NCBI RefSeq assembly: GCF_021026375.1
Contig: NZ_JAJNDB010000006.1
Coordinates: forward strand, 248,001-312,000
DNA: 64,000 nt
DNA from: Actinomycetospora endophytica
GTDB lineage: Bacteria; Actinomycetota; Actinomycetes; Mycobacteriales; Pseudonocardiaceae
Direction: 5' to 3'
Positions 2,764-61,297 of the stretch are shown piece after piece (the stretch's first letter is position 1; the number at the start of each line of letters is the position of its first letter). The translations under genes and the position numbers were made by a program. The notes beneath the pieces are model-generated. The model was not told the DNA's origin. It searched no databases and saw only the letters and a program-made list of their open reading frames with translations.

Positions 2764-4020
2764 TCACCGCACCGAGCGGGTGAGCAGCCCGACCAGCGCC
2801 CCCCGGTCCGCGGCGCGCGGGGCGTTGCGGCCGACCGGGTCGGCCGCGGCGGTCGTCGCGAGCGCGTCGATCTCCGGGCGCCCGAGCCCGAGCGCCTCGC
2901 CGTCGATCCCGACCGACACCCCGACGGCCTCGCACCAGCCGGCCAGCGCCTCGGGCACCGCGACGACGGGCACGCCGAGGGTCTCCGCGACGCGGGCCCA
3001 GGCCCCGTCGTCGGGGCCGGTGTCGCCCGAGACGATCCCGGTCCCGTCCAGCGACCAGGCGACGACCTCGGGAAGGACCAGGCCCAGCGCCCGGCCGTGC
3101 ACGACACCGTGGTGGGCGGTGATCGCGTGGCCGAGCGCGTGCACCAGTCCGAGCCCGCTGCGGGTGAGCGCCTGTCCGGCGAGGTGGGCGCCCACGAGCA
3201 TCTCGGCGCGCGCCGTCCCGTCCGCGCCGTCGCCCACCGCGGCCGGCAGCCAGCGCCACACCCGACGCAGGGCCTCGACCGCGAAGGCCTCGGAGACCGG
3301 GCTGCGACCCCGGCTGACCAGCGACTCCAGGGCGTGGACGAGCGCGTCGACCCCGGTCGCCGCGGTCGGTCCGGCCGGCAGGCCGTGGGTGAGCAGCGGG
3401 TCGAGCACGGCGACCCGCGGCGTGGTGCTCGCGTCGCCGCAGTAGACCTTGCAGCGCCGCGCGGGGTCCTCGAGCACGCCGAACCCGTTGGTCTCGGCGC
3501 CCGTGCCCGCCGTCGTCGGGACCGCGACCAGCGGCAGTCCGGGACCGGACGAGTCGGCGGCCAGGCGCGCGATGCCCTTGGCCGCGTCCAGCGCGGACCC
3601 GCCGCCCAGGGCCACGACGACCGGCCGCGAGCCCGGGAACGCCTCGGCGACGACGCCCGCGCCCGCCTCGACCGAGACCACTGTCGGGTTGCCCGGCACG
3701 TCGTCGATCACGACCGTCGGGCAGCCGACCCCCGCGAGCACGGCGAGGGCCTCGTCGACGATGCCGGTCGCGCGCAGGCCGCGGTCGGTCACGATCACCG
3801 CGCCGCCGGTGCGGGCGCCGGAGTGGACGTCGAGCACGTGGTCCCCGAGGCGGGCGAGCGCGCCGGGGCCGGAGTCGACGGCGGGTCCGGGCTCGTGGAC
3901 GAACGGGGTAGTCGCGGCGCAGGCACAGGCCGGTGTCAGCGATGCGGCGTTACTGACGCTGGACGTCAGCGACGCCGCATCGCTGACACGGGCGCCGGGC
4001 CGCGGCTCGACGGCGCTCAC
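2764..4020 (-). CDS. Iron-containing alcohol dehydrogenase with repeat-derived N-terminus
   Basis: 418-residue group III metal-dependent alcohol dehydrogenase or maleylacetate reductase type enzyme. It shows the NAD motif GGGSALDAAKG, PTTAGTGAE, and iron ligands in TGVDALVHALE and in HALGHAITAHHGVVHG. The only in-frame start ahead of the conserved FVHEPGP segment is GTG 4020, which overlaps the stop of the aldehyde dehydrogenase gene in a GTGA arrangement. Residues about 12-29, VSDAASLTSSVSNAASLT, are encoded by a palindromic repeat (family B), so the repeat must be translated. It is the last gene of an enolase-superfamily/aldehyde dehydrogenase/alcohol dehydrogenase operon. The alcohol or keto substrate is not known. 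Confidence 0.85.
   Translation of the reverse strand: MSAVEPRPGARVSDAASLTSSVSNAASLTPACACAATTPFVHEPGPAVDSGPGALARLGDHVLDVHSGARTGGAVIVTDRGLRATGIVDEALAVLAGVGCPTVVIDDVPGNPTVVSVEAGAGVVAEAFPGSRPVVVALGGGSALDAAKGIARLAADSSGPGLPLVAVPTTAGTGAETNGFGVLEDPARRCKVYCGDASTTPRVAVLDPLLTHGLPAGPTAATGVDALVHALESLVSRGRSPVSEAFAVEALRRVWRWLPAAVGDGADGTARAEMLVGAHLAGQALTRSGLGLVHALGHAITAHHGVVHGRALGLVLPEVVAWSLDGTGIVSGDTGPDDGAWARVAETLGVPVVAVPEALAGWCEAVGVSVGIDGEALGLGRPEIDALATTAAADPVGRNAPRAADRGALVGLLTRSVR
3934..3988. repeat. Palindromic element family B, copy 1 (inside alcohol dehydrogenase gene)
   Basis: Two 25-base arms (3934-3958 and 3964-3988) that pair at 23 of 25 positions around a 5-base loop CTGGA. Key motif is GTCAGCGATGCGGCGT with its complement. 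It is read in frame by the alcohol dehydrogenase gene. A second, partly decayed copy lies at 35153-35200 in the anti-sigma factor gene, read in the same orientation and frame. Confidence 0.85.
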
Positions 4021-8804: not shown

Positions 8805-9554
8805 GTGGTGGCGGCCAGGCGATCCACCGAGGTGAGCGCCCGCGTCGCCGCGCTGTGCGCCGAACTCGGCCCCGGTGCCATGTTGCCAGGCGAGCGGGAG
8901 CTCTCGGGGCGATTCGGTGTGTCGCGCGCGACCGTGCGCAAGGCGCTGGAGGAGCTGATGGCCCGGCGGGTCGTCGAGCGCCGTCACGGGGCGGGGACGT
9001 TCGTCCGCCGCCCGGCCGTGGCGCAGCCGCTGATGGCGACCTCGTTCGGCGACGACATGCGCCGGCGGGGCCTGGAGCCGTCGTCGCGCCTGCTGTGGTG
9101 GGACACCGTCGTGGCGGACACCGAGCTGGCGGGGCGGCTGGAGATGCCCGGCGGCGAGGCGGTCCTGCGGGTGTGCCGGGTGCGCCTCGCGGACGGCGAG
9201 CCGATGACGCTCGAGACCCTGCACGCCCCGGCCGAGCGGGTCCCGGGGCTCACCGGGGAGGACCTCGAGGGCGCCGCCTCCTACTACGACATCCTCGTGA
9301 CCCGGTTCGGGCGGCGGATCCGGTCCGGGACCCAGTCCGTCGCGCCGGTGGTGCTCGAGGCTCACGAGGCGGACCTGCTCGGCGTGCCGCCGGGCGATGC
9401 CGCGCTGCGCTTCGTCCGGACCTCCCGGGACCAGCACGGTGAGGTCGTCGAACGTGTCGAGTCGCTCGCGCGCGGGGACCGCTACCTCATCGAGATGGAC
9501 ATCATGCCGCCCCGGGACGGGGCCGAGCCGGTGAGCTCGGGAGCGATGCCGTGA
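8805..9554 (+). CDS. GntR/HutC family regulator of amino-sugar genes
   Basis: 249 residues. An N-terminal winged helix (about 5-70: LPGERELSGRFGVSRATVRKAL, then GAGTFVRRP) is joined to a UTRA effector domain (about 85-240) ending RGDRYLIEMDI. This is the DasR/NagR/YvoA architecture, whose effectors are glucosamine or GlcNAc phosphates. It heads the operon encoding MurQ, AnmK and NagA, and a dre-like palindrome covers its own promoter. There is no ribosome site before GTG 8805 or 8808, fitting leaderless translation. Its stop overlaps the next start (GTGA). Confidence 0.88.
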   Translation: MVAARRSTEVSARVAALCAELGPGAMLPGERELSGRFGVSRATVRKALEELMARRVVERRHGAGTFVRRPAVAQPLMATSFGDDMRRRGLEPSSRLLWWDTVVADTELAGRLEMPGGEAVLRVCRVRLADGEPMTLETLHAPAERVPGLTGEDLEGAASYYDILVTRFGRRIRSGTQSVAPVVLEAHEADLLGVPPGDAALRFVRTSRDQHGEVVERVESLARGDRYLIEMDIMPPRDGAEPVSSGAMP

Positions 9555-11371
9555 CGACCGTCGTCGCCGTCGACATGGGCCGCTCCGGGGCCCGGGTCCT
9601 GCGGCGCGAGCCGGGCTGCCCGGACATCCGCCGGACGACGCCCGCGGGGGCCGGGCTCGGTGACGCGGGCGGCCCCGCGGCCGTGGCGGCCGCGGTGCGC
9701 GCGGCGGTCGCGGCCCCGCCCACGGACGGGCCCTGGTCGCTCGTCGTCGGGGTGCCCGGCGCGCTCACGCACCCGGGCGCGGCCGAGGAGCTCACCGACC
9801 TCCTCGCCTCCGGCTGGCACGGTCCCGACCCGATCGCGGTTGCCCTGAGCTCCGACGTCGTCGCGTGGCACGCCGGCGCGTTCGCGGCCCCGTCGCCCGG
9901 AAGCCAGGTCGTCCTCGCCGTCGGGACGGGCGCGGTGGCGCTCGGGGTCGGGGCCGACGGGCGGGTCCGTCGCGTCGACGGCCACGGCCTGCTGCTCGGC
10001 GACTCCGGCGGCGGTGCCCGGCTCGGGCAGGAGGGTCTGCGGGCGGCGCTGCGGGCCCTGGACGGCGCGGGGCCGGCGACGGCGCTGGCCGGCCCGGCGC
10101 GGGAGATGCTCGCCGGGCGCCCGGATTCGCCCGCGGCGTTCGCCGGCTTCGCGCCCGCGGTGCTCGCGGCCGCCGACGGTGGTGACGGGGTGGCGCGGGC
10201 CCTGGTCGACGACGCCGTCACCGCTCTCGCCGCGACCGTCGACGCCGCGGGTGGCTCCCGGGCCGGCACCGAGGTCGCCGTCGTCGGGGGCCTCGCGGAC
10301 GCCCTCGCGCCGCGGCTCGCGGACGCCCGGCCCGACCTGGATCTGCGCGGCCCCGACGGGGACGCGATCGCGGGGCTGCTCCGCCTGCTCGACGACCCCG
10401 GGACGGCGCACGAACCGTTCGTCACCCGCCGCGCCGCCCCGGTGCCCGGTCAGACGTGGGGTCTGGCCGCGGAGGTCGACCGGCTGCCGACCGAGCTCGT
10501 CCGGGCCGGCTCCGAGGAGCTCGACGCCCTGACGACGCCGGTCCTGGTCGCGCGCCTCCTCGACGGGCAGGCGGCGGCGCCGGCCGCGGTCGCGGCGGTC
10601 GCGGGGGCACTGACCCAGGCGGTCGACGTGCTCGCGGAAGCGTTCCGCACCGGCGGGCGGCTGGTCTACGCCGGTGCCGGGACCTCGGGGAGGCTGGCGA
10701 TGCAGGACGCCGCCGAGCTGCCGCCGACCTTCGGCATCGACTCCGCCCGGGCGCTGGCGCTGCTCGCGGGCGGGGCGGGTGCGGCCGGGGCGGCGGTGGA
10801 GAACGCCGAGGACGACGACGTCGCCGGGCGGGCCGACGTCGAGGCGGCGGGGGTCGGTCCCGGTGACGTGCTGATCGGGGTGGCGGCGTCCGGGCGCACG
10901 CCCTACGTGCTCGGCGCGCTGCGGGCCGCGGACGATCGGGGGGCGGCCACGGTCGCCGTCGTGAACGCGACCGGCAGCCCGGCCGCGGCCCTCGCCGGGA
11001 CCGCGATCGAGCTGGTCACCGGCCCGGAGGTGCTCGCGGGCTCGACCCGGCTGGCCGCGGGCACCGCGCAGAAGGTCGCGCTGAACACGCTGACGACGGC
11101 GGCCATGGTGCGGGCCGGGGCGACCTACGGGCCGTGGATGGTCGGCGTCCGCGTCACCAACGCGAAGCTGCGGCGGCGCGCGGAGCGGATCGTGTGCGAC
11201 GCGGCCGGGGTCGACATCGGCCTCGCGCGGGCGGCCCTCGCGGACGCCCACGACGACGTTGCGACGGCTCTGGTCGCGCTGCTCGCCGGCCTCGACGGCG
11301 ACTCCGCGCGGGCCCGGCTCGCGGCGGCGGGCTCGGTGCGTGCGGCGGTCGACCCGGAGGCGATCGGGTGA
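9551..11371 (+). CDS. murQ: Fused BadF-type amino-sugar kinase / MurNAc-6-phosphate etherase
   Basis: 606 residues with two full enzyme halves. Residues about 1-290 are an ASKHA sugar kinase of the BadF/N-acetylglucosamine kinase type (DMGRSGARV, VLAVGTGAVALG, LLLGDSGGGARLGQEG). Residues about 295-606 are MurQ: LTTPVLVARLL, AGAGTSGRLAMQDAAELPP near 375, and GVAASGRTPYVLGAL. MurQ cleaves the lactyl ether of MurNAc-6-phosphate to give GlcNAc-6-phosphate. Fusion would let one protein phosphorylate the sugar released from anhydro-MurNAc or GlcNAc and then process it. It overlaps its neighbours by 4 bases on both sides. The exact kinase substrate, GlcNAc or MurNAc, is not decidable here. Confidence 0.9.
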   Translation: MTTVVAVDMGRSGARVLRREPGCPDIRRTTPAGAGLGDAGGPAAVAAAVRAAVAAPPTDGPWSLVVGVPGALTHPGAAEELTDLLASGWHGPDPIAVALSSDVVAWHAGAFAAPSPGSQVVLAVGTGAVALGVGADGRVRRVDGHGLLLGDSGGGARLGQEGLRAALRALDGAGPATALAGPAREMLAGRPDSPAAFAGFAPAVLAAADGGDGVARALVDDAVTALAATVDAAGGSRAGTEVAVVGGLADALAPRLADARPDLDLRGPDGDAIAGLLRLLDDPGTAHEPFVTRRAAPVPGQTWGLAAEVDRLPTELVRAGSEELDALTTPVLVARLLDGQAAAPAAVAAVAGALTQAVDVLAEAFRTGGRLVYAGAGTSGRLAMQDAAELPPTFGIDSARALALLAGGAGAAGAAVENAEDDDVAGRADVEAAGVGPGDVLIGVAASGRTPYVLGALRAADDRGAATVAVVNATGSPAAALAGTAIELVTGPEVLAGSTRLAAGTAQKVALNTLTTAAMVRAGATYGPWMVGVRVTNAKLRRRAERIVCDAAGVDIGLARAALADAHDDVATALVALLAGLDGDSARARLAAAGSVRAAVDPEAIG

Positions 11372-12681
11372 TCGTCGTCGGGATGCTGTCGGGGACGTCG
11401 ATGGACGGCCTGGACACCGCGGTCTGCGAGATCGAGGTTCCCGACGGAGCAACTGAGCACGCCGATAGGGGGGCTGCGAGCCTGACCGTGCTGGGTCACC
11501 GGTCGGCGCCGTGGCCCGCCGACCTGCAGGAACGGCTGCTCGCGGTCCTCCCTCCGGCGCGGACCACCGTCGAGGAGATCGCCTCGCTGGACAACGCCGT
11601 CGGGCAGGCGGCCGGCCGAGCCGCCGACCAGGCGCTGGAGGCGGTCGGGGTTCCCGGGGACCTGGTCGCGTGGCTCGGGCAGACGGTGTTCCACGGGATC
11701 GCGGGCGGCACGGCGACGGGCGGGCTGCAGCTGGGTCAGCCGGCGTGGATCGCGGAGGCGACCGGCCTGCCCGTCGTCTCCGACCTGCGCGCCACCGACA
11801 TCGCCGCGGGCGGTCACGGGGCACCGCTGGCGAGCACGCTCGACGCGCTGTGGCTCGCGACCGGGGAACGGACGATCGCCCTGAACCTCGGCGGGATCGC
11901 GAACATCACCGTCGTCGCCCCCACCATCCCGCACGAGGGGAACCCTCATCCCGCTAGAGCGACCGGATCCTCCCCTCACGGCCGACCGACGGTGATCGCC
12001 TACGACACCGGCCCCGCGAACTGCTGGCTCGACGTCGTCGCCCACCGCGCCACCGGCGTGCCCTACGACGTCGACGGGGCACTCGCGGCCTCCGGCACCG
12101 TCGACGACGCGCTGCTCGACCACCTGCTCGCCGAGCCCTACTACGCGGCGCGGCCCCCGAAGACGACCGGCCGCGAGCTGTTCACCGCGGCCGCTCTGGA
12201 CGCCGCGGTGGCCGCCACGAGTCCGGGGATCGAACCTGCGGATCTGGCCGCGACCCTCGTCGCGCTGACCGCCCGCACGGTGGCCGACGCGTGCCGGGCG
12301 CACGGACCGGTCGAGGTCGTCGGGTCGGGCGGCGGGATGGACAACCCGGTACTCCGCGCCGCGCTCGCCGAGGCGCTGGCCCCGACGCGGCTCGTGTACT
12401 CCGACGAGCGCGGTCTGCCCTCGGCCGCGAAGGAGGCGGTCCTGACCGCGCTGCTCGGTGCGCTGACCTGGCACGGCGTGCCCGGGGTACGGCCGGGCGC
12501 GACGGGCTCGCACACCGCGCGGGTGCTCGGCCGGATCAGCCCCGGGCGCCGACCGCTGCGCCTCCCCGAGCCGGTCGGGGCCGTCCACGCGCTCCGGATC
12601 GGGCCGCCGCGAGGGGAGGATCCGGTCGCTCTAGGGGGCCGAGGGGTCCCCTCGTGCGGGAGTGGCGGGGTGCAGGCGTGA
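11368..12681 (+). CDS. anmK: Anhydro-N-acetylmuramic acid kinase carrying two repeat insertions
   Basis: 437 residues, longer than the usual 370-390. AnmK hydrates and phosphorylates 1,6-anhydro-MurNAc to MurNAc-6-phosphate, the substrate of MurQ. Motifs: VGMLSGTSMDGLD, GQTVFHG, NLGGIANITVV, YDTGPANCWLD, and GSGGGMDNP. Residues about 189-204 (HEGNPHPARATGSSPH), between two conserved strands, are encoded by a family A palindromic element. A second, inverted copy supplies most of the last 25 residues, beyond the family's usual end (RVLGRISPG). Start GTG 11368 overlaps the murQ stop; its own stop overlaps the nagA start. Whether the enzyme tolerates the insert is untested. Confidence 0.9.
   Translation: MIVVGMLSGTSMDGLDTAVCEIEVPDGATEHADRGAASLTVLGHRSAPWPADLQERLLAVLPPARTTVEEIASLDNAVGQAAGRAADQALEAVGVPGDLVAWLGQTVFHGIAGGTATGGLQLGQPAWIAEATGLPVVSDLRATDIAAGGHGAPLASTLDALWLATGERTIALNLGGIANITVVAPTIPHEGNPHPARATGSSPHGRPTVIAYDTGPANCWLDVVAHRATGVPYDVDGALAASGTVDDALLDHLLAEPYYAARPPKTTGRELFTAAALDAAVAATSPGIEPADLAATLVALTARTVADACRAHGPVEVVGSGGGMDNPVLRAALAEALAPTRLVYSDERGLPSAAKEAVLTALLGALTWHGVPGVRPGATGSHTARVLGRISPGRRPLRLPEPVGAVHALRIGPPRGEDPVALGGRGVPSCGSGGVQA
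11931..11980 (+). repeat. Palindromic element family A, copy 1 (inside anmK)
   Basis: About 50 bases bounded by GAGGGGA and TCCCCTC, with an internal core TAGAGCGACCGGATCC identical in all three copies. Read in frame as HEGNPHPARATGSSPH. Same orientation and frame relative to its gene as the copy in the ferredoxin reductase at 19388-19440. Confidence 0.9.
12608..12660 (-). repeat. Palindromic element family A, copy 2 (3' end of anmK, inverted)
   Basis: Reverse orientation relative to copy 1. Contains GAGGGGAGGATCCGG, CGCTCTA and a terminal CCCCTCGTGCGGG. It is translated in frame as [17 protein letters not shown] and forms most of the AnmK C-terminal extension, ending 21 bases before the anmK stop and 17 bases before the nagA start. 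Confidence 0.9.
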
Positions 12682-13817
12682 GACGGCGGCTGGGCGTGGG
12701 CGCGGCCCTCGTCGACGGCGTGCTGCATCCCGGCGACGTGGCGGTCGCGGACGGCGTCGTCGAGGCGGTCGGGCTCCCGGCGGCGCGGGGCGGGGCGCTC
12801 GCCGTCGCCGGGCTGGTGGACGTGCAGTGCAACGGCTACGCCGGGATCGACCTCACGACGCTGGGCGACGCCCCCGACGTCGAGCGGGTGGACGCGTTCC
12901 GCCGCGCCGTGGCCGCCGACGGGGTGACCGCCGTCGTCCCGACGATCATCACCGCGGCGCCCGACACCCTGACCGGGGCGCTCGCCTGTCTCGACGAGTC
13001 ACGCGGGAGCAACGACGGCGCCCGGCTGCTCGGCGCCCACGTCGAGGGGCCGTTCCTCGCCCCCGCGCGGCGCGGCACCCACCCGCCGCAGCACCTCCGA
13101 GCACCTGACCACGGATGCTTCACCCAGCTCCTCGACGCCGGCGACGTCGCGATCACCACCCTCGCCCCGGAGCTCGACGGCGCCCTCGACCTCGTCCGCC
13201 GGGCGACCAGCCGGGGCGTCACGGTGATGGCCGGACACTCCGACGCCACCGCCGCCCAGGCCCACGCCGGGTTCGACGGCGGGATCACCGGCGCCACGCA
13301 CCTGTTCAACGCCATGAGCGGGTTCGACCACCGCGCACCCGGACTGGCCGCGGCCGCCCTCGCCCACCCGGGCACCGTCGTCTCCGTGATCGCGGACGGC
13401 CACCACGTCGCCCCGGACGTGCTGCGCGTGATCGCCGCCGCCGCGGCCGGGCGGTGGGCGCTCGTCACCGACGCGACCGCGGCCGCCGGGATGCCCGACG
13501 GCCGATTCACCCTCGGCGACGTCGAGCTCACCCTCGCCGACGGCGCCGTCCGCAACCCCGACGGCACCCTCGCGGGCAGCGCGGCGACCCTCGCCGGCTG
13601 CGTCCGGACGGCCGTCGCCGCGGGCATCGACCTCGCCGCGGCGCTCGTCGCCGCCACCGCGACACCGGCCGGGATCGTGCCGCCCAGCCGGCGCCCGCAC
13701 CGCGATCTCGGCCGGCTGCGCCCCGGCGGGGTCGCCGACGTGACGGTGTTCGACGACGCTCTCGAGGTCACGACGGTGCTGGTGGCGGGCCGGCCCACGA
13801 TCGCCGGCAGCGAGTAG
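12678..13817 (+). CDS. nagA: N-acetylglucosamine-6-phosphate deacetylase
   Basis: 379-residue amidohydrolase that removes acetate from GlcNAc-6-phosphate, feeding glucosamine-6-phosphate to glycolysis or wall synthesis. Motifs include GLVDVQCNGYAGID, AHVEGPFL with the catalytic metal-site Glu, the metal histidines in MAGHSDAT and HLFNAM, and VTDATAAAGMPDG with the catalytic Asp. Start GTG 12678 overlaps the anmK stop (GTGA). NagB is not in the window. The gene is third of the recycling enzymes in this operon. Confidence 0.93.
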   Translation: MRRRLGVGAALVDGVLHPGDVAVADGVVEAVGLPAARGGALAVAGLVDVQCNGYAGIDLTTLGDAPDVERVDAFRRAVAADGVTAVVPTIITAAPDTLTGALACLDESRGSNDGARLLGAHVEGPFLAPARRGTHPPQHLRAPDHGCFTQLLDAGDVAITTLAPELDGALDLVRRATSRGVTVMAGHSDATAAQAHAGFDGGITGATHLFNAMSGFDHRAPGLAAAALAHPGTVVSVIADGHHVAPDVLRVIAAAAAGRWALVTDATAAAGMPDGRFTLGDVELTLADGAVRNPDGTLAGSAATLAGCVRTAVAAGIDLAAALVAATATPAGIVPPSRRPHRDLGRLRPGGVADVTVFDDALEVTTVLVAGRPTIAGSE

Positions 13818-13829
13818 GAGGAGGCGGGC

Positions 13830-15329
13830 GTGCACGACGTCGTCAACCTCGCGGTCATCGTCGCCTACCTGGTGGCGATCGCCGTGATCGGTCTGAAGCT
13901 CTCCGGTCGGCAGCGGTCGGCCACCGACTACTTCACCGGGGAGCGCTCGCTGCCGTGGTGGGCGGTGATGTTCTCGATCGTCGCGACCGAGACCTCCACG
14001 CTGACCGTGATCAGCGTTCCGGGGGTGGCGTACGGCGGGTCGTTCTCGTACGTCGAGCTCGCCGTCGGGTACCTGGTCGGGCGGATCCTCGTGGCGTTCG
14101 TGCTGCTGCCGCTGTACTTCCGCGGCGGGTTCGTCTCCGCCTACCAGTACCTCGGGCAGCGCTTCGGGCGGCCGACGCAGGGGCTGGCCTCGCTGACGTT
14201 CCTGGTCACGCGGCTGCTCGCCGAGGGCGTGCGGCTGTTCGCCGGCGCGATCCCGATCAAGCTGCTGCTCGCCGAGTTCGGGCTGGACGTCAACTACTTC
14301 GTCATCGTCCTGGCGATCACCGCGGTCACCGTCGCCTACACCTACGTCGGTGGGATCAAGGCGGTGGTGTGGACCGACTTCCTGCAGATGGGGCTCTACG
14401 TCGTCGGTGCGGTGGTCTGCGTGATCGTGCTCGCGACGCAGGTCGACGCCGGCGGCTGGGCGGCCGCGTGGGACGCCGGGAAGTTCACCGTCTTCGACTT
14501 CTCGAAGCCGATCCTGACCAGTCCGTACGCGTTCGTCACCGCGGTCGTCGGCGGAGCGCTGCTGACGATGGGCTCGCACGGCTCCGACCAGCTGATCGCG
14601 CAGCGGGTGCTCTCCTGCCGCTCGCTCTCCGACGGGCGCAAGGCGATGATCGGCTCGGCGGTGGCGATCGGGGTGCAGTTCGGACTGTTCTCGCTGGTGG
14701 GGGCACTGCTCTGGGCCCGCAACCGCGGGGCGTCGCTGTCGTCGCTGCACCTGACCAGCGACCAGCTCTTCGGCGAGTTCATCCTGCGCGACCTGCCGAT
14801 GGGCCTGTCCGGGCTGCTCGTCGCGGGCATCCTCGCCGCGACGATGGGGTCGCTGTCCAGCGCGTTGAACTCGCTGTCGACCTCCACGATCGCCGACCTC
14901 GTGGAGTCCTGGGGGCGGTGGCGGCCGGACGAGGCGACGATGCTGCGGGTCGCCCGATGGATGACCGGGGTGTGGGCGCTGATCATGGTCGGGTTCGCGT
15001 CGCTGTTCACGACCACGCAGGACCCGGTGGTCGAGCTCGGGCTCTCCATCGCCTCCTACGCCTACGGCGCGCTGCTCGGGGCGTTCCTGCTCGGGCGGCT
15101 CGTCCCGCGGGCCGACGGGGTGGCGTCGTTCGTGGCGTTCGTCGCGACGCTGATCGGGACCGCCTGGGCTGCGCTGGGCATCGACATCGGCGGGCAGCCG
15201 CTGGCGTTCCCGTGGTTCGTGCCGCTCGGCGTGGTGATCACTCTGGCGATCGGCGGGGTGATCTCGTTGGTCCGCCCACGACGGGAGCCCGTGGACGATC
15301 CGGAGCCGGAGCCGGTCGCGTCGGCCTGA
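13830..15329 (+). CDS. Sodium:solute symporter (SSS family), probable amino-sugar or muropeptide-sugar importer
   Basis: 499 residues with about 13 predicted membrane helices. SSS features include the early YFTGERSLPWWAVMFSIVATETST segment, GGIKAVVWTDFLQM and AATMGSLSSALNSLSTSTIADL. Start GTG 13830 follows AGGAGGAG by a normal spacing and lies 12 bases after nagA. As the last gene of the GntR-MurQ-AnmK-NagA operon it most likely imports an N-acetylated amino sugar, anhydro-MurNAc or a sialic-acid-like compound; the substrate is inferred from context only. Confidence 0.85.
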   Translation: MHDVVNLAVIVAYLVAIAVIGLKLSGRQRSATDYFTGERSLPWWAVMFSIVATETSTLTVISVPGVAYGGSFSYVELAVGYLVGRILVAFVLLPLYFRGGFVSAYQYLGQRFGRPTQGLASLTFLVTRLLAEGVRLFAGAIPIKLLLAEFGLDVNYFVIVLAITAVTVAYTYVGGIKAVVWTDFLQMGLYVVGAVVCVIVLATQVDAGGWAAAWDAGKFTVFDFSKPILTSPYAFVTAVVGGALLTMGSHGSDQLIAQRVLSCRSLSDGRKAMIGSAVAIGVQFGLFSLVGALLWARNRGASLSSLHLTSDQLFGEFILRDLPMGLSGLLVAGILAATMGSLSSALNSLSTSTIADLVESWGRWRPDEATMLRVARWMTGVWALIMVGFASLFTTTQDPVVELGLSIASYAYGALLGAFLLGRLVPRADGVASFVAFVATLIGTAWAALGIDIGGQPLAFPWFVPLGVVITLAIGGVISLVRPRREPVDDPEPEPVASA

Positions 15330-15333
15330 ACCG

Positions 15334-15651
15334 TCACGACCCGCCGTCGTCGGGAACCCCGGAACGCGCGCTGCCGTCGGGTGCGGTGTGCGAGGCGCCG
15401 GCGGTCGAGCCGTCGATGGCCGGCGCCCGCTGGCCGGTGCCGTAGTAGACCCAGAGATCGCCCGGATGGTGGGCCGAGCAGTCGGTGTCGTCCACGCGGA
15501 CCGCGGCCGGGCTGGAGCAGACCTCGTTGGTCGTCGAGTCGGCCTGCAGCCACGCCCCGACGCCGAAGACCACGGCGATGACGGCCAGGCCGATCCAGAA
15601 GCTCGCGAGCACGCCGCCGAACCCGTCGCGGTCGTCGGTGCGCTTCGCCAT
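15334..15651 (-). CDS. Small single-pass membrane protein, unknown
   Basis: 105 residues. A short basic N-terminus (MAKRTDDRD) is followed by one hydrophobic helix at about 14-34 and a small exported-looking tail containing NEVCSSP and DTDCSAHHPGDLWVYYG, with two cysteines that could pair. No family recognised. It follows the S9 peptidase gene by 3 bases in the same direction, so the two are probably co-transcribed. Confidence 0.6.
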   Translation of the reverse strand: MAKRTDDRDGFGGVLASFWIGLAVIAVVFGVGAWLQADSTTNEVCSSPAAVRVDDTDCSAHHPGDLWVYYGTGQRAPAIDGSTAGASHTAPDGSARSGVPDDGGS

Positions 15652-15654
15652 GCG

Positions 15655-17616
15655 TCAGTCCAGGTTCTCGATCGCGACCGGCTCGATGCCCTCGTCGTCG
15701 GGCAGTGTGAACCCGAACAGCCGCGCGTAGAACGCTAGCTCGGCGTCGAGCGCCCGGCGGATGTTCGCGGCCTGCCGGAACCCGTGCTGCTCCCCCGCGA
15801 ACAGCAGGTAGGCCACCGGGACACCGCGGGCGCGGAGCGCGTCGACGATCATCTCCGACTGGTTCGGCGGGACGATCGCGTCCTCGTCGCCCTGCAGTAC
15901 GATCAGCGGCGTCGCGAACTGCTCGACGTGGTGCAGCGGCGAGCGCTCGACGTAGACGTCCCGGTCGGCGGGGTAGGGCCCGACGAGCCCGTCGAGGTAG
16001 CGGGACTCGAACTTGTGGGTGTCGCGGGCGAGCGCCTCGAGATCGGCGACGCCGAAGTGATCGGCCCCGGCCGAGAACGGGGTGTCCTCGCGGGCCAGCG
16101 CCGCGAGCGTGGTGAACCCGCCGGCCGAGCCGCCGCGGATGGCCATCCGGTCCCGGTCGACCCGGCCGGCGTCGGCCAGCGCGCGGGCCGCCGCGAGGCA
16201 GTCCGCGACGTCGACGATCCCCCAGGCACCGTCGAGCTGCTCGCGGTAGGCGCGGCCGTAGCCGGTCGAGCCGCCGTAGTTGACGTCGACGACCCCGAAG
16301 CCCCGGCTCGTCCAGTACTGCAGCCCGACGGCGAGCACCGGGGTCGCCGCGCCGGTGGGGCCGCCGTGGATGACGACGAGGAGTGGCGGGAGCTCGTCAC
16401 TCGGGCCGGTGTGGGTGCCCGACGGCGGGTAGTACAGCGCGTGCGCGTCGCGGGGGGCGCCGTGCGCGTCGACCGAGAGGAAGGTCATCGGCTCCGGGAC
16501 GGACAGCGTCGTCGGGTCGAGGCCGAGGTCGCGTGGGGCGCGCAGGGTGGTGACGGTGCCGTCGGTGGTGACGCGGTGGATCCCGGGTTCGGTGGTGGGT
16601 GAGCCGGCGACGCAGAGGACGGCGTCGGGTCCGTCGGCGCGTACCGAGCGGATGGCGGTGAACCCGGTGTCGAGGAGGTTCACGGTCCGGTCGGGTTTCC
16701 GCACGGCGAGGGCGTCGAAGCCTGCCGAGGAGCGGGCGAACACGACGGTTCCGTCGTTGAGCATCGCGGAGCGCGACCCGCCGAGTTGCCAGCCCGGGAC
16801 CCCGATCTCGGCGTCGAGGACCACCAGCGGTTCGACGACGCCGCCGACCGGCCAGCGGTAGAGGTTCCACCACCCGGTGCGGTCGGAGAGGAAGACCAGC
16901 GACCCGTCGGGCTGCCAGGCGGGCTCGGCGACCGACTCCTCCGGTCCACCCGCGACGACGGTCTCGTGACCGCTCGCCAGATCCCGGACGGTGAGCACGG
17001 TGTCGTCCCACGGCATCGACGGGTGGTCCCACGAGATCCACGCGAGCCGGGCGGCGTCGGGCGAGAGGCGCGGGGCGGCGACGAAGTCCGGTCCGCTGAC
17101 CATGACCTCGGGTGTCGACGGTGTCCGCGCGTCGAGGCGGACGATCTCGTTGACGACCTCGGTGGCCGGGCCGTCCGTCGTCGGGTGGTGCTCGCGGACG
17201 CAGACCAGCCAGGTCCCGTCCGGGGCGACGTCGCCGTCGGCGTAGCGGTCGCCTCTGCTGACGGCCGGCTCGGGGGTCAGCGGGGTGACGTCGTTTCCCT
17301 CGAGCCGTCGGAGCCGCTGGTCGGTCCACTCGACGTAGAACACGACGCCCGGCTCCGCGGCGCTGGTCCACCAGCTCCCGCCGCCGTACTCGTGCACCGC
17401 GCTCCGGGCGTTGCCGCCGTCGGGGAGCAGGTCGGTGCAGGTCCCGTCGGGGTCGCGGCGCACCAGCGCGATCCGGCCGCCCTCGGTCGCGCGGCCCTCC
17501 CCCCAGACGACCGCTCCGGTGCCGTCCGGGCGGACCTCGTCGAGGCGGACGGCGGCGGCGACCACGAGCTCGGAGGTGATCGGCGTCGGCCACGAGCCGT
17601 AGGAGGAGATCGACAC
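15655..17616 (-). CDS. S9 family prolyl oligopeptidase
   Basis: 653 residues. An N-terminal beta-propeller (about 1-370) is followed by an alpha/beta hydrolase domain. The catalytic Ser is in IRGGSAGGFTTLAAL, the Asp in LQGDEDAIVPPNQSE and the His in FAGEQHGFR; the oxyanion region is VIHGGPTGAA. It resembles dipeptidyl aminopeptidase/acylaminoacyl-peptidase enzymes that trim short peptides, usually in the cytoplasm; no signal peptide is seen. Start GTG 17616 (VSISSYGSW); an adjacent upstream GTG cannot be excluded. Confidence 0.9.
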   Translation of the reverse strand: MSISSYGSWPTPITSELVVAAAVRLDEVRPDGTGAVVWGEGRATEGGRIALVRRDPDGTCTDLLPDGGNARSAVHEYGGGSWWTSAAEPGVVFYVEWTDQRLRRLEGNDVTPLTPEPAVSRGDRYADGDVAPDGTWLVCVREHHPTTDGPATEVVNEIVRLDARTPSTPEVMVSGPDFVAAPRLSPDAARLAWISWDHPSMPWDDTVLTVRDLASGHETVVAGGPEESVAEPAWQPDGSLVFLSDRTGWWNLYRWPVGGVVEPLVVLDAEIGVPGWQLGGSRSAMLNDGTVVFARSSAGFDALAVRKPDRTVNLLDTGFTAIRSVRADGPDAVLCVAGSPTTEPGIHRVTTDGTVTTLRAPRDLGLDPTTLSVPEPMTFLSVDAHGAPRDAHALYYPPSGTHTGPSDELPPLLVVIHGGPTGAATPVLAVGLQYWTSRGFGVVDVNYGGSTGYGRAYREQLDGAWGIVDVADCLAAARALADAGRVDRDRMAIRGGSAGGFTTLAALAREDTPFSAGADHFGVADLEALARDTHKFESRYLDGLVGPYPADRDVYVERSPLHHVEQFATPLIVLQGDEDAIVPPNQSEMIVDALRARGVPVAYLLFAGEQHGFRQAANIRRALDAELAFYARLFGFTLPDDEGIEPVAIENLD

Positions 17617-17663
17617 GCGGCCCACGCTATCGCCGGGCCGGTTCGGTCCCGCCGCCCCTTTGC

Positions 17664-17725
17664 TGATCAACAGCACATGAGGTGCCTCGCACGGCCTCCT
17701 GCTCGGCCTCATGTGCTGTTGATCA
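17664..17725. repeat. Perfect 19-base inverted repeat (hairpin E)
   Basis: TGATCAACAGCACATGAGG at 17664-17682 and its exact complement at 17707-17725, with a 24-base loop. It lies just after the desaturase stop on the minus strand and could act as its terminator, but there is no U-run. Only one copy in the window. Confidence 0.8.
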
Positions 17726-17731
17726 ACTCCT

Positions 17732-18919
17732 TTACGCGGCGGCGGCCGCCGCCGCGCGGGCCTCCCGCGCCGCGGAGGGCGTCGTCGAGGCGTTCTCACG
17801 ACGCAGTCCCTCCGACTCGTGCGCCGCCTGCTCGGCCGCCGCCTTACGGTTCGGGAGCGCGAGCCGCCAGATGGTGCGGATCGACTTCCAGAACTGCTTC
17901 GGGAACGGCCCGATGTTGTACGGGAGGTCGTACTTCTCGCAGATCGCCTTCACGCGCTCCGCGATCTCGGGGTAGCGGTTCGACGGCAGGTCCGGGAACA
18001 GGTGGTGCTCGATCTGGTAGCCGAGCGAGCCGGACATGACGTGCATGAGCCGCCCGCCGGTGAAGTTGGCCGACCCGAGCAGCTGGCGCAGGTACCACTC
18101 GCCCTGCGTCTCGTTCTCGAGCTGTTCCTCGGTGAACACCTCGGCCCCGTCGGGGAAGTGCCCGCAGAAGATGATCGCGTACGACCACACGTTGCGGATG
18201 AGGTTCGCGGTCATGTTCGCGGTCAGCGTCGTGAGGAAGAACGGGCCGGTCAGCAGCGGGAAGAGCAGGTAGTCCTTGCCCATCTGCCGGCGCATCTTGC
18301 GGCCGACCTGCTCGAGCTTGGCCCGGAACTCCTCGGGGTCCTGGACGTCGCGGCGCAGCAGTCCCTCGATGTCGAGGTCGTGGATCGCCACGCCGTGCTG
18401 GAAGAGCAGCATCAGCAGCGTGTTGAACACCGGCTGGCCGAGGTTGACCGGGTGCCACTTCTGGTCGGACGTGACGCGGAGGATCTCGTAGCCGACGTCC
18501 TTGTCCTTGCCGATGACGTTCGTATAGGTGTGGTGCAGGTAGTTGTGGGAGTGCTTCCACTGGTCGGCGGGGCAGACGTTGTCCCACTCCCACGTGGCCG
18601 AATGGATCTCGGGGTCGTTCATCCAGTCCCACTGGCCGTGCATGACGTTGTGGCCGATCTCCATGTTCTCGAGAATCTTGGCCACGCCGAGGAGAGCGGC
18701 GCCCGCCATCCACAGCGGCGGGATCGGGCTGCCGAACAGCGCCACGCGGCCCGCGATCTCGATGCGGCGCTGCGTGCGGATGATCGAGCGGATGTACTCC
18801 TCGTCGGAGGCCCCGCGCGACGCCTCGACGTCGCGGCGGATCTGGTCGAACTCCTCGCCGAGCGCCTCGACGTCGGCGTCGGTCAGGTGGGCGAACTCCG
18901 TGATGTCGGAGATGGCCAT
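17732..18919 (-). CDS. Fatty acid (acyl-CoA) desaturase
   Basis: 395-residue membrane di-iron desaturase with all three histidine boxes: IGHNVMHGQWDWM near 95, HSHNYLHHTYTN near 130 and YQIEHHLFPDLPSN near 315. Hydrophobic stretches flank the boxes. Start ATG 18919 follows GGAAGGGGAG. The C-terminus ends in an alanine run. It is 29 bases downstream of a ferredoxin reductase gene, repeating the arrangement at 1-2089. It is probably a delta-9-type acyl-CoA desaturase of the DesA3 group that adjusts membrane fluidity; regiospecificity is not readable. Confidence 0.93.
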   Translation of the reverse strand: MAISDITEFAHLTDADVEALGEEFDQIRRDVEASRGASDEEYIRSIIRTQRRIEIAGRVALFGSPIPPLWMAGAALLGVAKILENMEIGHNVMHGQWDWMNDPEIHSATWEWDNVCPADQWKHSHNYLHHTYTNVIGKDKDVGYEILRVTSDQKWHPVNLGQPVFNTLLMLLFQHGVAIHDLDIEGLLRRDVQDPEEFRAKLEQVGRKMRRQMGKDYLLFPLLTGPFFLTTLTANMTANLIRNVWSYAIIFCGHFPDGAEVFTEEQLENETQGEWYLRQLLGSANFTGGRLMHVMSGSLGYQIEHHLFPDLPSNRYPEIAERVKAICEKYDLPYNIGPFPKQFWKSIRTIWRLALPNRKAAAEQAAHESEGLRRENASTTPSAAREARAAAAAAA

Positions 18920-18948
18920 GGTCGGACTCCCCTTCCGTGAGGTGGGTT

Positions 18949-20121
18949 CTAGAGGTCGATGACGCAGTCGCCCGACGCCGCGCTCACGCAGGTCTGGACG
19001 GTGCGGGTGGCCTGGTCGGTCGGCGCGACGCGTGCCTCGGTGCCGTCGCGCAGGTCGCGCACCGCGCCGGAGCGCAGCGGGGCGACGCAGGTGTGGCAGA
19101 TGCCCATGCGGCAGCCGAACGGCATCGGGATTCCGGCGCGCTCGCCGGCGTCGAGGACCGTGGTCGCGCCGTCGGCCTCGACGGTCCGCCCGGAGCGGGC
19201 GAACGTGATCGTGCCGCCCTGCGACGACGCGGCGTCGGCCGAGAACGAGGCGGCGAACCGCTCGAGGTGCAGCGCGTCGGTGAGGCCGGCGTCCGCCCAG
19301 AGCTTCTCGGCGTCGTCGAGCATGGCGGCGGGGCCGCACGCCCAGGTCTCCCGCTCGCGCCAGTCCGGGACGAGGTCGTCCAGGCTCGTGCGAGGGGAGG
19401 ATCCGGTCGCTCTACCGGGACGAGGGTTCCCCTCGTGCGGGGCGGGCCGGAGGGCGAGCCGGCCGGCCGTCGCGGTGTGGTGCGAGACGATCCGCCAGTC
19501 GGGGTGGCGCCGGGCGAGCAGGTCGAGCTCGTCGGCGAAGAGCGCGCGCTCGGCGTCGGGCGCGCAGTGCACGACGGTCACGTCGTGCAGGGATCCGCTG
19601 CCACCACGACGGTCCAGCGTCCGCAGCATCGCCATGATCGGCGTGATCCCGCTGCCCGCGGTGAGCATGAGGACCTTGTCCGGCAGCGGGTCGGGCAGCA
19701 CGAACTCCCCGGCGGGCGGGGCGAGGCGGACGATGGTGCCGGGCGCGACGCCGTGCACGAGGTGACGCGACGCGAAGCCCTCGGGCATCGCGCGCACCGT
19801 CACCACGAGCCGCCGGCCGTCGCGCGACGGCGGCGTCGTGAGCGAGTACGAGCGCCACACGAAGCGCCCGTCGATCTGCACGCCGATCCCGATGTACTGG
19901 CCGGCGGCGTGGGTGAAGCTCCAGCCCCAGCCGGGCTCGACGACGAGCGTCGCCGTGTCCTCGGCCTCCGGGGTGACGCTGACGATGCGGCCCCGCAGCT
20001 CACGGGCGGACCACAGCGGATTGACGAGGGTCAGGTAGTCGTCGGGGAGCAGCGGGGTGGTGAAGCGGGTCGCGGCGTCGCGCAGTCGTCGCGCGAGCGG
20101 CGAGTCTCCGATCGCTGTCAC
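18949..20121 (-). CDS. Ferredoxin reductase with 2Fe-2S domain carrying an in-frame repeat insertion
   Basis: 390 residues. Reductase core has RSYSLTTPP for [16 protein letters not shown] for the nucleotide and WACGPAAML; the C-terminal ferredoxin domain has CRMGICHTC and QTC. It is the partner of the desaturase 29 bases downstream. Residues 229-244 ([16 protein letters not shown]) are encoded by a family A palindrome. The paralogue at 977-2089 reads [15 protein letters not shown], whereas this protein has 24 residues between GRL and LDDLVPDW, a net gain of 20 residues. Start GTG 20121 follows AGAGGAGAGA. The insertion lies on a loop before the nucleotide-domain CGP motif. Confidence 0.92.
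19388..19440 (-). repeat. Palindromic element family A, copy 3 (inside ferredoxin reductase)
   Basis: Read on the minus strand it starts GCACGAGGGGAACC and ends GGATCCTCCCCTCGC, with the same TAGAGCGACCGG core as the anmK copies. Translated in frame as [16 protein letters not shown]. The neighbouring paralogous gene lacks it. Confidence 0.92.
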
Positions 20122-20244
20122 GGTCTCTCCTCTGCCTGGTGAATTACTAGGTACCAGGAGTACCGGAGACCGACGGTTACCGCTACCCACGGTACCGGGT
20201 GAGTGTGTTGTTCCGGCTCACAGCCGGGTTCGTGGGCCGGCCCA

Positions 20245-20290
20245 CATGTGCGTGCGTTTCCGTGTCCTGGCACGGAAACGCACGCACATG
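20245..20290. repeat. Palindromic element family C, copy 1
   Basis: Two perfect 20-base arms (CATGTGCGTGCGTTTCCGTG and complement) around TCCTGG, followed by GGCCGGAGGCC. It lies between two divergent genes, where a terminator would have no use. Confidence 0.88.
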
Positions 20291-20398
20291 GGCCGGAGGC
20301 CCGAACCCGGTAATTAGTTCCCGATCGCGCCCGGCCGCCGACCCCTCCGCCCCGCTTGACTCGGAGTCGACATCGTTGCCGGACGCGAGGAGGACCCC

Positions 20399-34437: not shown

Positions 34438-35454
34438 TCAGTCCGCCGTCTGACCGCTCGCGACGACCTGGGTCGGCGTGGCGGGCACGGTGTGACCGGG
34501 CTCGAGGGACACCGCGAACCCGGCGAACCGTCCAGCCGCCTCCACCGAGGGTACGGACTGCACGAGCGGGCCTGAATCGGACATCTGGATCGTCGACAGC
34601 CCGACCGGCTTGCCGTCCGCCAGACCCCACAGAACGTAGGTGTGGTCGGGGTCGGCGGGCGTCAGCCCGGAGGACAGCACCTCGGACCCGCGGCCCCGGT
34701 CGACGACGAGGCCGGCGAAGCCGCCCTGCGGGGTCGCGAGGACCGCGTGCGGGGTCCCGGGCTCGGAGGCGGCGTTCATGATCTCCACCACCTGCTGGTT
34801 CTGCGCCGCCGACGCGGTGGCGGCGTCGCGCTGCTCGGTCAGCGACCGGTTCGCGGCGACCAGCCCACCGATCGCGACGACGACGGCGACGGCGGCCGCG
34901 AGGGCGAGCCCGGCGGTCGCGCGGCGGGCCCATCGACGACGGCCGGCCTCGGGAGCCCGATGACGGCGTATGGGCACGACGGCGGGTGCGGGCTCGGTCT
35001 CGACGAGCGTCGGGTCGGGCGAGGCGACCTCGACGACGTCGGCCGCTGGATCGGCGGTCGAGGCCGTGGAGTTCGAGGATGGCGAGCTCGGGGATGCCGC
35101 GTTCGACGACGCCGAGTGCGAGGACACCGCGTTCGGGGACGTCGAGTTCGAGGATGTGGCGTTGCTGACGTCCAGCGTCAGCGGTGCCGCATCGCTGACG
35201 TCCGCCGAGCCGGGTTCCTCGGCAGCCGCCGCCAGCAGCGCCGTCCGCAACGACGCCGGCGGGTCCACCTGCTCCACGGCCGTCCCGAGCAGCGTCGTGA
35301 CGTCCTCGGTCTCGGCCACGATGCGCAGGCAGCCCTCGCACTCGTCGAGGTGCGCCGCGAAGACCTCCGCCTCGTCCGGCTCGAGGCCGTGCATCACCCA
35401 CGCTACGGCGAGCTCGGGGTGCCCGTGCGCGGAGGCGGGCAGCGGGGCGGTCAT
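34438..35454 (-). CDS. rskA: RskA-type anti-sigma factor with expanded Ser/Asn-rich linker
   Basis: 338 residues. An N-terminal zinc-finger-like anti-sigma domain (about 10-75; HLDECEGC) is followed by a long linker (about 85-150), one membrane helix (about 178-200) and an extracytoplasmic RskA domain (GGFAGLVVDRGRGSEVLSSGL, YVLWGLADGKPVGLSTI). It should hold the sigma factor encoded just upstream and release it on a surface signal by proteolysis. The linker contains a family B palindrome (DVSDAAPLTLDVSNAT) and a degenerate Ser/Asn run. Start overlaps the sigma stop (ATGA). The family is usually about 230-260 residues, so the linker is expanded. Confidence 0.85.
   Translation of the reverse strand: MTAPLPASAHGHPELAVAWVMHGLEPDEAEVFAAHLDECEGCLRIVAETEDVTTLLGTAVEQVDPPASLRTALLAAAAEEPGSADVSDAAPLTLDVSNATSSNSTSPNAVSSHSASSNAASPSSPSSNSTASTADPAADVVEVASPDPTLVETEPAPAVVPIRRHRAPEAGRRRWARRATAGLALAAAVAVVVAIGGLVAANRSLTEQRDAATASAAQNQQVVEIMNAASEPGTPHAVLATPQGGFAGLVVDRGRGSEVLSSGLTPADPDHTYVLWGLADGKPVGLSTIQMSDSGPLVQSVPSVEAAGRFAGFAVSLEPGHTVPATPTQVVASGQTAD
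35153..35200. repeat. Palindromic element family B, copy 2 (inside anti-sigma gene)
   Basis: Right arm 35176-35200 (CGTCAGCGGTGCCGCATCGCTGACG) is full length in form; the left arm 35153-35170 (GATGTGGCGTTGCTGACG) is shorter and partly decayed. Loop TCCAG. Matches the copy at 3934-3988 and is read in the same frame, as VSDAAPLTLDVSNAT. Confidence 0.8.
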
Positions 35455-42257: not shown

Positions 42258-42282
42258 GCGCCCTCCTTCGGCCTCCGGCCTC

Positions 42283-42322
42283 GTGCGTGTGTTTCCGTGT
42301 CCAGACGCGGAAACACACGCAC
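42283..42322. repeat. Palindromic element family C, copy 2
   Basis: GTGCGTGTGTTTCCGTGT (42283-42300) with complement at 42305-42322, one mismatch. Flank GGCCTCCGGCC at 42270-42280 is the family's conserved side motif, here on the opposite side, so this copy is inverted relative to copies 1, 3 and 4. Confidence 0.85.
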
Positions 42323-42365
42323 ACCCGACGTCGGCACCCTAGAGCCGATGATCGACGGCAGCCGA

Positions 42366-42411
42366 CATGTGCGTGCGTTTCCGTGTCCAGACACGGAAAC
42401 GCACGCACATG
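42366..42411. repeat. Palindromic element family C, copy 3
   Basis: Perfect 21-base arms (42366-42386 and 42391-42411) around CCAG, the tightest hairpin of the family. It begins 5 bases after the stop of the flavin oxidoreductase gene and is followed by GGCCGTCAGGCC. Only 43 bases separate it from copy 2. Confidence 0.9.
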
Positions 42412-42415
42412 GCCG

Positions 42416-43588
42416 TCAGGCCGACTGCCAGGACCCGGCCGGCGGCAGGCCGATCGACGGCGCGTGCCCGCGGAAGTTCTCCAGCCAGTGGCGCCAGTCG
42501 TCGGGGAGCAGCGTGAACGGCGCGTCGTGGCCGAGCTCGCGGGCCGCCCACACCGGCCAGTGCGGGTTGGACAGCGCCGGGCGCCCGAGCAGCACGACGT
42601 CGGTCATGCCGGTCTCGACCGCCCGGTTCGCGTTCTGCGGGACGCCGAGGTTCCACGAGCACACCGTCGGGATGCCGACCTCGCGCCGCACCCGCGCGGA
42701 ACGCTCGAGCATGAAGCCCGGGTCGTTCATCGGGGGCTTCTCGGCCATGTCGTCGGTGTTGAACCCGAGACTCATGTCGGCCGCGTCGAGCCCGTGCTCG
42801 GCCATCCACCCGACCGCCTGCACCGAGTCGTCGAACTGGATGCCGTCGGGGTGGAAGTCGTCCGAGCCCAGCCGCATCGTCAGCGGGTAGCGCTCCGGCC
42901 ACACCTCGCGGACGGCGTCGAGCGCCTCGAGCAGGAAGCGGGCCCGGTTCTCGACCGAGCCGCCGTACTCGTCGTCGCGCTGGTTCGCCAGCGGCGAGAA
43001 GAACTCGGCGGCCAGGTAGCCGTGCGCGAAGTGCATCTCCAGCCACTCGTACCCGGCGTCGGCGGCCCGCCGCGCCGCGTCCGCGTACGACCGGTGCAGC
43101 CCCCGGATCTCGTCCTTGGTCAGCGCGTGGACGTCGAAGGGGTGGTCGCCGCCGTAGGGGATGTTCGACGGGCCGGAGACCTGCCAGCCGCGGTCGTGGT
43201 CCGGCGGCAGCTGCGCGCCCGACCCGTACTCGCCGACCTGCCCGTGCGCGGCGACCTCGCTGCCCTTGCGCCCGGTGTGCCCGAGCTGGATCCCGGCGAC
43301 CCCGCCCTGCCGCTTGATGATGTCGGTGACCCGGGCGTGCCCCTCGATCTGGTCGTCGCTCCAGATGCCGGCGCAGTCCACCGTCGTGCGGCCCTCCGGC
43401 ACGATCGCGACCTGCTCCGGGAAGACCAGCCCGAAGCCGCCCGCCGCACGGGCCCCGAGGTACATCACGTGGTAGTCGTTCATCGCGCCGCTGCGGTCGG
43501 CGCACGCGTGCATCGTCATCGGCGACATGCCGATGCGGTTGCGCAGCGTCACGCCCTTGAGGGTGAACGGGGAGAAGAGGTCGGGCAC
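42416..43588 (-). CDS. Old yellow enzyme-type NADH:flavin oxidoreductase
   Basis: 390 residues, TIM-barrel FMN enzyme. It begins DLFSPFTLKGVTLRNRIGMSPM. It has IQLGHTGRKG for the FMN/substrate site, the HFAHGYLAAEFFSPLANQRDDEYGG region and VVLLGRPALSNPHWP at the phosphate loop. It probably reduces enoates or similar electrophiles. Start GTG 43588; a 17-codon upstream extension lacks homology. Confidence 0.9.
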   Translation of the reverse strand: MPDLFSPFTLKGVTLRNRIGMSPMTMHACADRSGAMNDYHVMYLGARAAGGFGLVFPEQVAIVPEGRTTVDCAGIWSDDQIEGHARVTDIIKRQGGVAGIQLGHTGRKGSEVAAHGQVGEYGSGAQLPPDHDRGWQVSGPSNIPYGGDHPFDVHALTKDEIRGLHRSYADAARRAADAGYEWLEMHFAHGYLAAEFFSPLANQRDDEYGGSVENRARFLLEALDAVREVWPERYPLTMRLGSDDFHPDGIQFDDSVQAVGWMAEHGLDAADMSLGFNTDDMAEKPPMNDPGFMLERSARVRREVGIPTVCSWNLGVPQNANRAVETGMTDVVLLGRPALSNPHWPVWAARELGHDAPFTLLPDDWRHWLENFRGHAPSIGLPPAGSWQSA

Positions 43589-61288: not shown

Positions 61289-61297
61289 CGCGCCCCT

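Follow-up and report, generated by a model that had tools for sequence, protein, structure and literature searches.

Repetitive extragenic palindromic (REP) sequences are palindromes of 20-40 bp located behind genes and also within open reading frames (ORFs); they form inverted dimers and donate TAG stops, and for the REPs of the CGTC kind Table 1 lists no transposase association (PMC3733652). Rickettsia palindromic elements (RPEs), which are 105-146 bp long and specific to Rickettsia, are found in frame in unrelated protein genes and between genes, while bacterial miniature inverted-repeat transposable elements (MITEs) such as Correia, ERIC/RU-1 and RU-2 measure about 100-200 bp, some of them being fused in frame to genes, with target duplications in four of the seven MITE families of Table 1 (PMC2229807). 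Palindromes read in frame within proteins have been published for Rickettsia, O. terrae, Thauera, enterobacteria and others (PMC3733652, PMC2229807). No earlier description of palindromes inside proteins in Actinomycetospora or actinobacteria was found in the open-access literature. The O. terrae of the above list is presumably Opitutus terrae. The words Actinobacteria, Streptomyces, Frankia and Mycobacterium are absent from the main text of PMC3733652. Here, we analysed a stretch of 64,000 nucleotides (nt) of Actinomycetospora endophytica (contig NZ_JAJNDB010000006.1, positions 248,001 to 312,000; hereafter the window), which holds three copies of a palindromic unit of 50 nt, and found that these units are a dispersed, non-autonomous repeat family of the genus Actinomycetospora. 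We read it, with a probability of roughly four in five, as a REP-like family of small repeats that were inserted and then sorted by selection, some of them presumably being translated.

The 50-nt core lies at 11931-11980 on the forward strand (copy 1) and at 12608-12657 (copy 2) and 19389-19438 (copy 3) on the reverse strand, and the copies are identical to one another at 45, 46 and 45 of the 50 positions. A preliminary description of this DNA had reported three sites with a common core and both terminal arms, and this was borne out: a pattern of the two arms with a spacer of 20-40 nt matched three times in the window, against a mean of 0.00 in 100 shuffles. The 16-nt core alone, with up to three mismatches, matched four times against 1.4 expected, a number reached by 7 of 100 shuffles and not significant, so the significance of the repeat lies in the core plus both arms. 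The unit reads GCACGAGGGGAACCCTC..., a centre that is usually TAGAGCG, and ...GGATCCTCCCCTCGCG; the centre is flanked by 10-bp outer arms, the palindrome is imperfect, and the right arm is asymmetric in most copies. The arm spacing was constant in the copies read, the ends of which are GC[A/G]C... and ...CTCGCG or CTCACG, with TAG in the middle. A base profile of 188 copies, taken by class and genome, showed a sharp right edge and an enrichment of C, with some T, over roughly the 12 positions that precede the core; in intergenic copies, C makes up about 45-80% of the bases from -12 to 0. This C-rich leader of roughly 7-13 nt is general across the family. In the window it occupies 11918-11930 (+) before copy 1, where it is without counterpart at empty AnmK sites, and 19439-19450 (-) before copy 3, where it was delimited by reading of the sequence, the reductase alignment and the family profile. 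At gathering thresholds, Rfam found four tRNAs in the window and nothing else.

All three copies lie in frame inside ORFs of named proteins, in agreement with the preliminary description. Genes were called by a codon-usage gene finder trained on the window and the fetched loci, and the calls are our own. Copies 1 and 2 fall in the gene of anhydro-N-acetylmuramic acid kinase (AnmK, PF03702; 11368-12681, +; from ORF and Pfam), copy 1 being read as HEGNPHPARATGSSPH and copy 2, which is antisense to AnmK, being predicted to be translated as part of a C-terminal extension. Copy 3 is in frame within a ferredoxin reductase-like gene with FAD_binding_6, NAD_binding_1 and Fer2 domains (18949-20190, -; from ORF and Pfam, with the start placed at 20121 by the gene finder). 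The statement that five of the six frames through the element are open held for copy 3, but only three frames are open in copy 1 and four in copy 2.

Further copies of the unit turned up throughout the full genome and in relatives of the same genus. When the own genome (6.98 Mb) was searched by blastn with a single copy plus flanking bases as query, 50 matches were obtained at E 10, of which about 30 were close to full length. A family model built from 29 copies gave 53 matches in this genome, which probably include both-strand matches and matches to a sister type, GAAGGGC...GCCCTTC, and it matched 14 of 18 Actinomycetospora genomes at E 0.01, with 0 to 105 matches each. Eight of the 18 hold clear family copies (best matches E 1.6e-9 or better, the copies read being of the family type), while 11 loci read in the other six model-positive genomes (G001, G003, G006, G007, G012 and G016) are of the sister type. 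At E 1e-5 the model matched 89 times in G009, 51 times in G005 and 38 times in G002. Copies with a matrix score of at least 30 in the fetched loci were classified, giving 223 in total (35 from the own genome, G000, 87 from G009, 49 from G005, 32 from G002, 11 from G010 and 9 from others), so that the counts come mainly from four genomes and weak copies are under-represented. The final set of 219 excludes four copies close to the end of a locus and includes one (L130, intergenic) of the sister type. A scan of 84,980 species, made as an exact match to one pattern in a collection where the records of the own genome may be absent, found 48 DNA stretches, every one in records titled Actinomycetospora. 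Among 200 genomes sampled from the taxonomic family, nine matched at E 1e-4; eight of them are Actinomycetospora, and the ninth, of another genus, has a single weak match (E 5e-5). The reversed-sequence control gave no match scoring at least 20 in 1.23 Mb. Copies are dispersed beyond the window, and the concern that the element might occur only there has fallen away.

In three host genes, the copies are shown to be insertions. Alignment of host proteins, the test proposed in the preliminary description, defined them by orthologues that do not have the element, in AnmK, the reductase and an MmgE/PrpD-family gene. AnmK was found in six of the 18 genus genomes: copy 1 is present in the own genome and, in the same loop, in G005 (two of six orthologues) and absent in G002, G008, G013 and G017, while copy 2 is present in the own genome only (one of six), the five other orthologues stopping short of the element. 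Copy 3 is filled in three of eight reductase orthologues (own genome, G009 and G010) and absent in G002, G005, G008, G013 and G017, and 20 paralogous reductase sequences likewise do not have its residues. The MmgE/PrpD-family gene carries a copy near its start in the own genome and G005, and none in G017, G008, G003, G016 and G007. The comparison covered orthologues of this genus, other genera not having been fetched, and solved AnmK relatives, and none of them without a copy carried the same residues. By alignment, the net inserts in AnmK and the reductase measure 57-63 nt, that is, the 50-nt core and extra flanking bases; the suggestion that the lengths are divisible by three does not fit the fixed unit and fits the net inserts owing to these flanking bases.

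Inside genes, in frame, lie 53 of the 219 copies, which fall into 27 host families including AnmK, a biotin-dependent carboxylase, a MaoC-domain protein, a protein kinase, a thiamine pyrophosphate (TPP) enzyme, a P-type ATPase, an SRP54-type GTPase (which we take to be FtsY-like), RecO, UreF and a NuoEF-like protein. The frame through these copies is kept open. The insert lay inside the matched Pfam stretch in 4 of 23 hosts against 15.2 expected, in a test that left out four of the 27 host families (three had no Pfam match and one was outside the scan) and in which Pfam coverage was widened by hand for AnmK, an ABC-F-like protein and a PfkB protein, with the result that AnmK counts as inside and the expected number is higher. 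The AnmK insert falls where two solved relatives show gaps, and the AlphaFold models of AnmK and the reductase, of low overall confidence (56 and 62), show both inserts as unstructured loops; a search of the PDB with the reductase gave no match at 1e-20. Judged from the sequences, in-gene copies should add about 20 mostly polar residues, usually in loops, linkers or termini. When hosts were counted by frame (31 cases, not strictly independent, as some hosts give several frames), 19 shared one strand and frame (xREGNPRxxRAxxSSPR), where openness alone would give a share of 0.22 (P 3.8e-6), and same-strand cases outnumbered opposite ones by 21 to 10 (P 0.03). This bias, which openness does not account for, may stem from a preference at insertion or from the nature of the peptide. 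In a protein kinase family (L050, L202, L250 and L306), copies stand after the kinase domain in four genomes at slightly different places; this region is twice filled in G009 and looks like a hot spot.

Some sites are filled in two separate clades. Trees of four genes gave clade A (own genome, G009 and G010) and clade B (G017, G005, G002, G008 and G013), with support for the inner nodes of clade B of 61-87 from protein and 85-93 from codon positions 1 and 2. At seven positions, the elements of G005 and G002 can be told from those found in the own genome, G009 and G010. Copies at sites shared by both clades bear the bases of their own clade with about the same strength as unshared ones. On a clade score with a maximum of 7, the mean in clade A was 5.39 for shared-site copies (n=33) against 5.61 for unshared ones (n=96), and in clade B -4.16 (n=25) against -4.61 (n=56), four clade B copies being A-like. 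At sites common to A and B, the copies of the two clades have about 11-13 differences in 50 bases, 0.3-1.4 fewer than unrelated copies between the clades, and copies within a genome differ less, at about 7-11. Shared copies in clade A resemble each other more than other copies do (own genome and G009, 8.0 versus 9.5; G009 and G010, 4.0 versus 7.0). The clade-specific sequence at shared sites suggests homogenisation or re-insertion.

At somewhat less than even odds, the two clades acquired their common sites independently, through parallel insertion at preferred spots instead of descent and homogenisation. Such parallel insertion would fit the clade-specific bases of the shared-site copies and the right junctions of the AnmK insert, which differ by several residues. 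It would also fit AnmK and MmgE, which are filled in the own genome and G005 only and empty in G017 and G008 (AnmK also in G002 and G013): the tree, of moderate support, needs two gains, or one gain and two exact losses, and two gains are favoured for these two genes, which are empty in most of clade B. Against it, the distance to the stop codon was kept within 3 nt in 10 of 21 shared A-B pairs of intergenic or gene-end copies (pairs that are not all independent), compared to 12.9% of random pairs. Moreover, one doublet is conserved between the clades with identical distances, and a G002 copy there keeps an A-like variant seen also in its G009 counterpart. Many shared sites look ancestral, yet their sequences appear to have been replaced. 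This leads to a tentative explanation by concerted evolution, in which copies at ancestral sites, in genes and behind them, would be continually overwritten by the current version of their lineage through gene conversion or in-place re-insertion. Homogenisation and parallel insertion may both act. The title of a 1988 review by Higgins et al. reportedly raises the question of concerted evolution for REPs.

With regard to genes, the copies show a clear placement bias. The preliminary description had raised enrichment inside genes and the opposite was seen: the coding share of the DNA is about 89-90% and yet only 53 of the 219 copies are wholly genic, so copies are depleted in genes, where they are present only in open frames. 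A further 131 are intergenic and 35 overlap a gene end. Intergenic copies lie at a median of 31 nt from 3' ends, and 130 of them with both neighbours comprised 47 between convergent, 69 between codirectional and 14 between divergent genes, while of 148 element-free gaps of at least 70 nt (in the window and named loci of at least 7 kb), 24 were convergent and 46 divergent. Of the 35 gene-end copies, 19 terminate a same-strand gene with a stop codon that lies at the centre of the element (18 TAG, 1 TAA). Single copies make up most of the 223; neighbours less than 60 nt apart within one fetched locus form 23 tail-to-tail, 13 tandem and no head-to-head pairs, and the tail-to-tail gaps are 15-19 nt in 15 of 23 pairs and 25-29 nt in six.

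The unit can also fold. Among 192 copies, at least 99% can pair positions 5-11 with 41-47, bases that are almost invariant, and an alternative pairing of 4-9 with 13-18 in the left arm gives two competing folds. Pair 4-48 is C-G in one clade, whereas among the 58 copies from G005 and G002 it is T-A in 27 and a C.A mismatch in 18. In the sister family (CGAAGGGCACCTTCG..TAGA..GCCCTTCG; L345-L374 and L405-L424), which has symmetric and asymmetric right arms and lies mostly behind genes, pairs 7-45 and 11-41 shift from G-C and A-T to A-T and C-G, the set having been gathered with a pattern biased towards these bases. The pattern for the sister family was present in 13 of 18 genus genomes, and the reversed pattern had no match. 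Of 76 sister copies, 66 are intergenic and 2 in genes, versus 53 of 219 in genes for the main family (Fisher P 5e-6), a contrast that is indicative, because sampling differed between the two families; with another pattern, a third sister copy inside a gene (L380) was found.

From these features the elements might be taken as functional 3'-end hairpins (terminators, attenuators or stabilisers of mRNA ends) under selection, with the in-gene copies as accidental spill-over. The positions behind stop codons and between convergent genes, the stop codons that the element supplies, the nearly complete pairing of positions 5-11 with 41-47, the mostly intergenic sister family and its compensatory changes, as far as the pattern behind them allows, would all be expected. 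We consider this explanation unlikely. Ten of the 18 genomes yielded no copy of the main family and four (two of them incomplete) yielded neither family, so such a role would be dispensable; REP repeats are placed alike (PMC3733652); and 53 copies lie wholly inside genes.

The agent of insertion was sought in the flanks and in the gene content. No consistent excess of matching flanks was found for target duplications of k 2-8 at 16 offset pairs. A Y1 transposase (PF01797) was detected in none of the 18 genus genomes, some of whose assemblies are incomplete, and in 5 of 14 control genomes; a REP-associated tyrosine transposase (RAYT) or an IS200-type transposase was rejected as the agent on this ground. 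An autonomous parent was considered for inverted copies about 1.1 kb apart around one gene in L068 and L321. This arrangement, met in a non-systematic search for a parent transposon with the same ends, is one orthologous three-gene locus in two genomes, with separate element copies in both spacers, and not a transposon; its middle genes (L068 1424-2431, L321 1697-2665) are related, and the middle protein had no Pfam match at 1e-5. The flanking genes are, as far as we recognise them, leuS and inositol-phosphate synthase.

The family resembles REPs in being a small multicopy palindrome that is mostly intergenic near 3' ends, has convergent or codirectional neighbours and inverted doublets, is inside ORFs in some cases and supplies TAG to flanking genes (PMC3733652). 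That it consists of REPs, or of the REP doublets called REPINs, of the GTAG or CGTC superfamilies, those of the GTAG kind being moved by RAYT, is nevertheless very improbable. Its palindromes, tail-to-tail doublets, 3'-proximal placement, intragenic units and donated TAG match what is described there, but the unit is a constant 50 nt and not 20-40 bp, there is no terminal GTAG or CGTC tag outside the stem at either end, the right arm is asymmetric in most copies, and no Y1 transposase was found, the last point counting against the GTAG kind only. Owing to size and terminal tag, and for the GTAG kind also the missing RAYT, we do not file the element as a REP. RPEs are similar in their in-frame insertion in unrelated protein genes and between genes (PMC2229807), and the likeness drawn to them in the preliminary description stands for this behaviour; by description, 50 nt versus 105-146 bp and Actinomycetospora versus Rickettsia, of a different phylum, separate the two, and for size and host range the element is not filed as an RPE. 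MITEs share the dispersed inverted-repeat units, some in frame in genes, and differ in size (about 100-200 bp) and in the target duplications of some families (PMC2229807); no consistent duplication was found for the present element. Finally, a conserved motif of the host enzymes, or chance resemblance in GC-rich DNA with its many long spurious ORFs, is refuted by the orthologues and paralogues without the residues, the same DNA in intergenic places, and the empty shuffle and reversed controls.

We return to a REP-like family of inserted repeats sorted by selection. The inserting agent, apparently other than a Y1 (RAYT/IS200) transposase, would leave no target duplication that can be detected. 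Copies would then be sorted by selection, most persisting just behind stop codons, often between convergent genes, as single units or tail-to-tail pairs, and some copies provide the stop codon of the preceding gene. Inside genes, copies would survive where the net insert is a multiple of three and the frame is open, usually at linkers, loops or termini, and translation would then add about 20 residues, most of them polar, to the host protein. The family, its insertion, the open frame and the bias in position are shown by the data, and the mobility of the units and its agent, the translation and the harmlessness of the inserts are what we infer here from sequence comparison. Several points weigh against this explanation. 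Neither a mobilising gene nor a transposition intermediate nor a recent insertion came to light, and with incomplete assemblies the absence of PF01797 is not proof; the largest departure in the flank analysis was four matches versus about one expected at two of the 16 offset pairs (k 4; 96 tests in all). Simple insertion and descent do not predict clade-specific sequence at shared sites, and the frame preference exceeds the prediction from openness. In addition, the outer pairs 3-49 and 4-48 showed no covariation between copies within a genome (192 copies), 4-48 being C.A in 26 of the 192, and the confidence of both AlphaFold models is low.

Other repeats and genes were observed in the window. 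A second palindrome type, GATGCGGCGTTRCTGACG...CGTCAGCGACGCCGCATC, lies at 3941-3981 and 35153-35193, inside predicted genes 2764-4020 (-) and 34438-35454 (-), and is possibly a second in-gene family. The palindromic family GTGCGTGCGTTTCCGTG...CACGGAAACGCACGCAC has four copies (20240-20301, 42275-42336, 42361-42422 and 61290-61351), all intergenic by our gene calls, and the near-perfect palindrome GACCGAGTCACGGTGACTCGGTC has two copies about 85 nt apart (57303-57325 and 57410-57432). The regions 1-2089 and 17732-20190, about 18.1 kb apart, are diverged duplicates of a pair of neighbouring genes and register as the DNA repeats D1, D4, D6 and D13; the second holds the reductase with copy 3, to which the reductase of the first is 49% identical. 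Directly upstream of AnmK, 9551-11371 is a single ORF of 606 amino acids with a BadF-type ATPase region and SIS domains, presumably a kinase-etherase fusion.

The combination of 27 host families, sites filled and empty across species, a marked frame preference and no RAYT found is notable. The genus offers a natural test set for the spread of short repeats without a known transposase, for the tolerance of proteins to about 20 foreign residues, and for whether short dispersed repeats evolve in concert. If the explanation by concerted evolution is true, peptide segments of unrelated proteins would change together in each clade.

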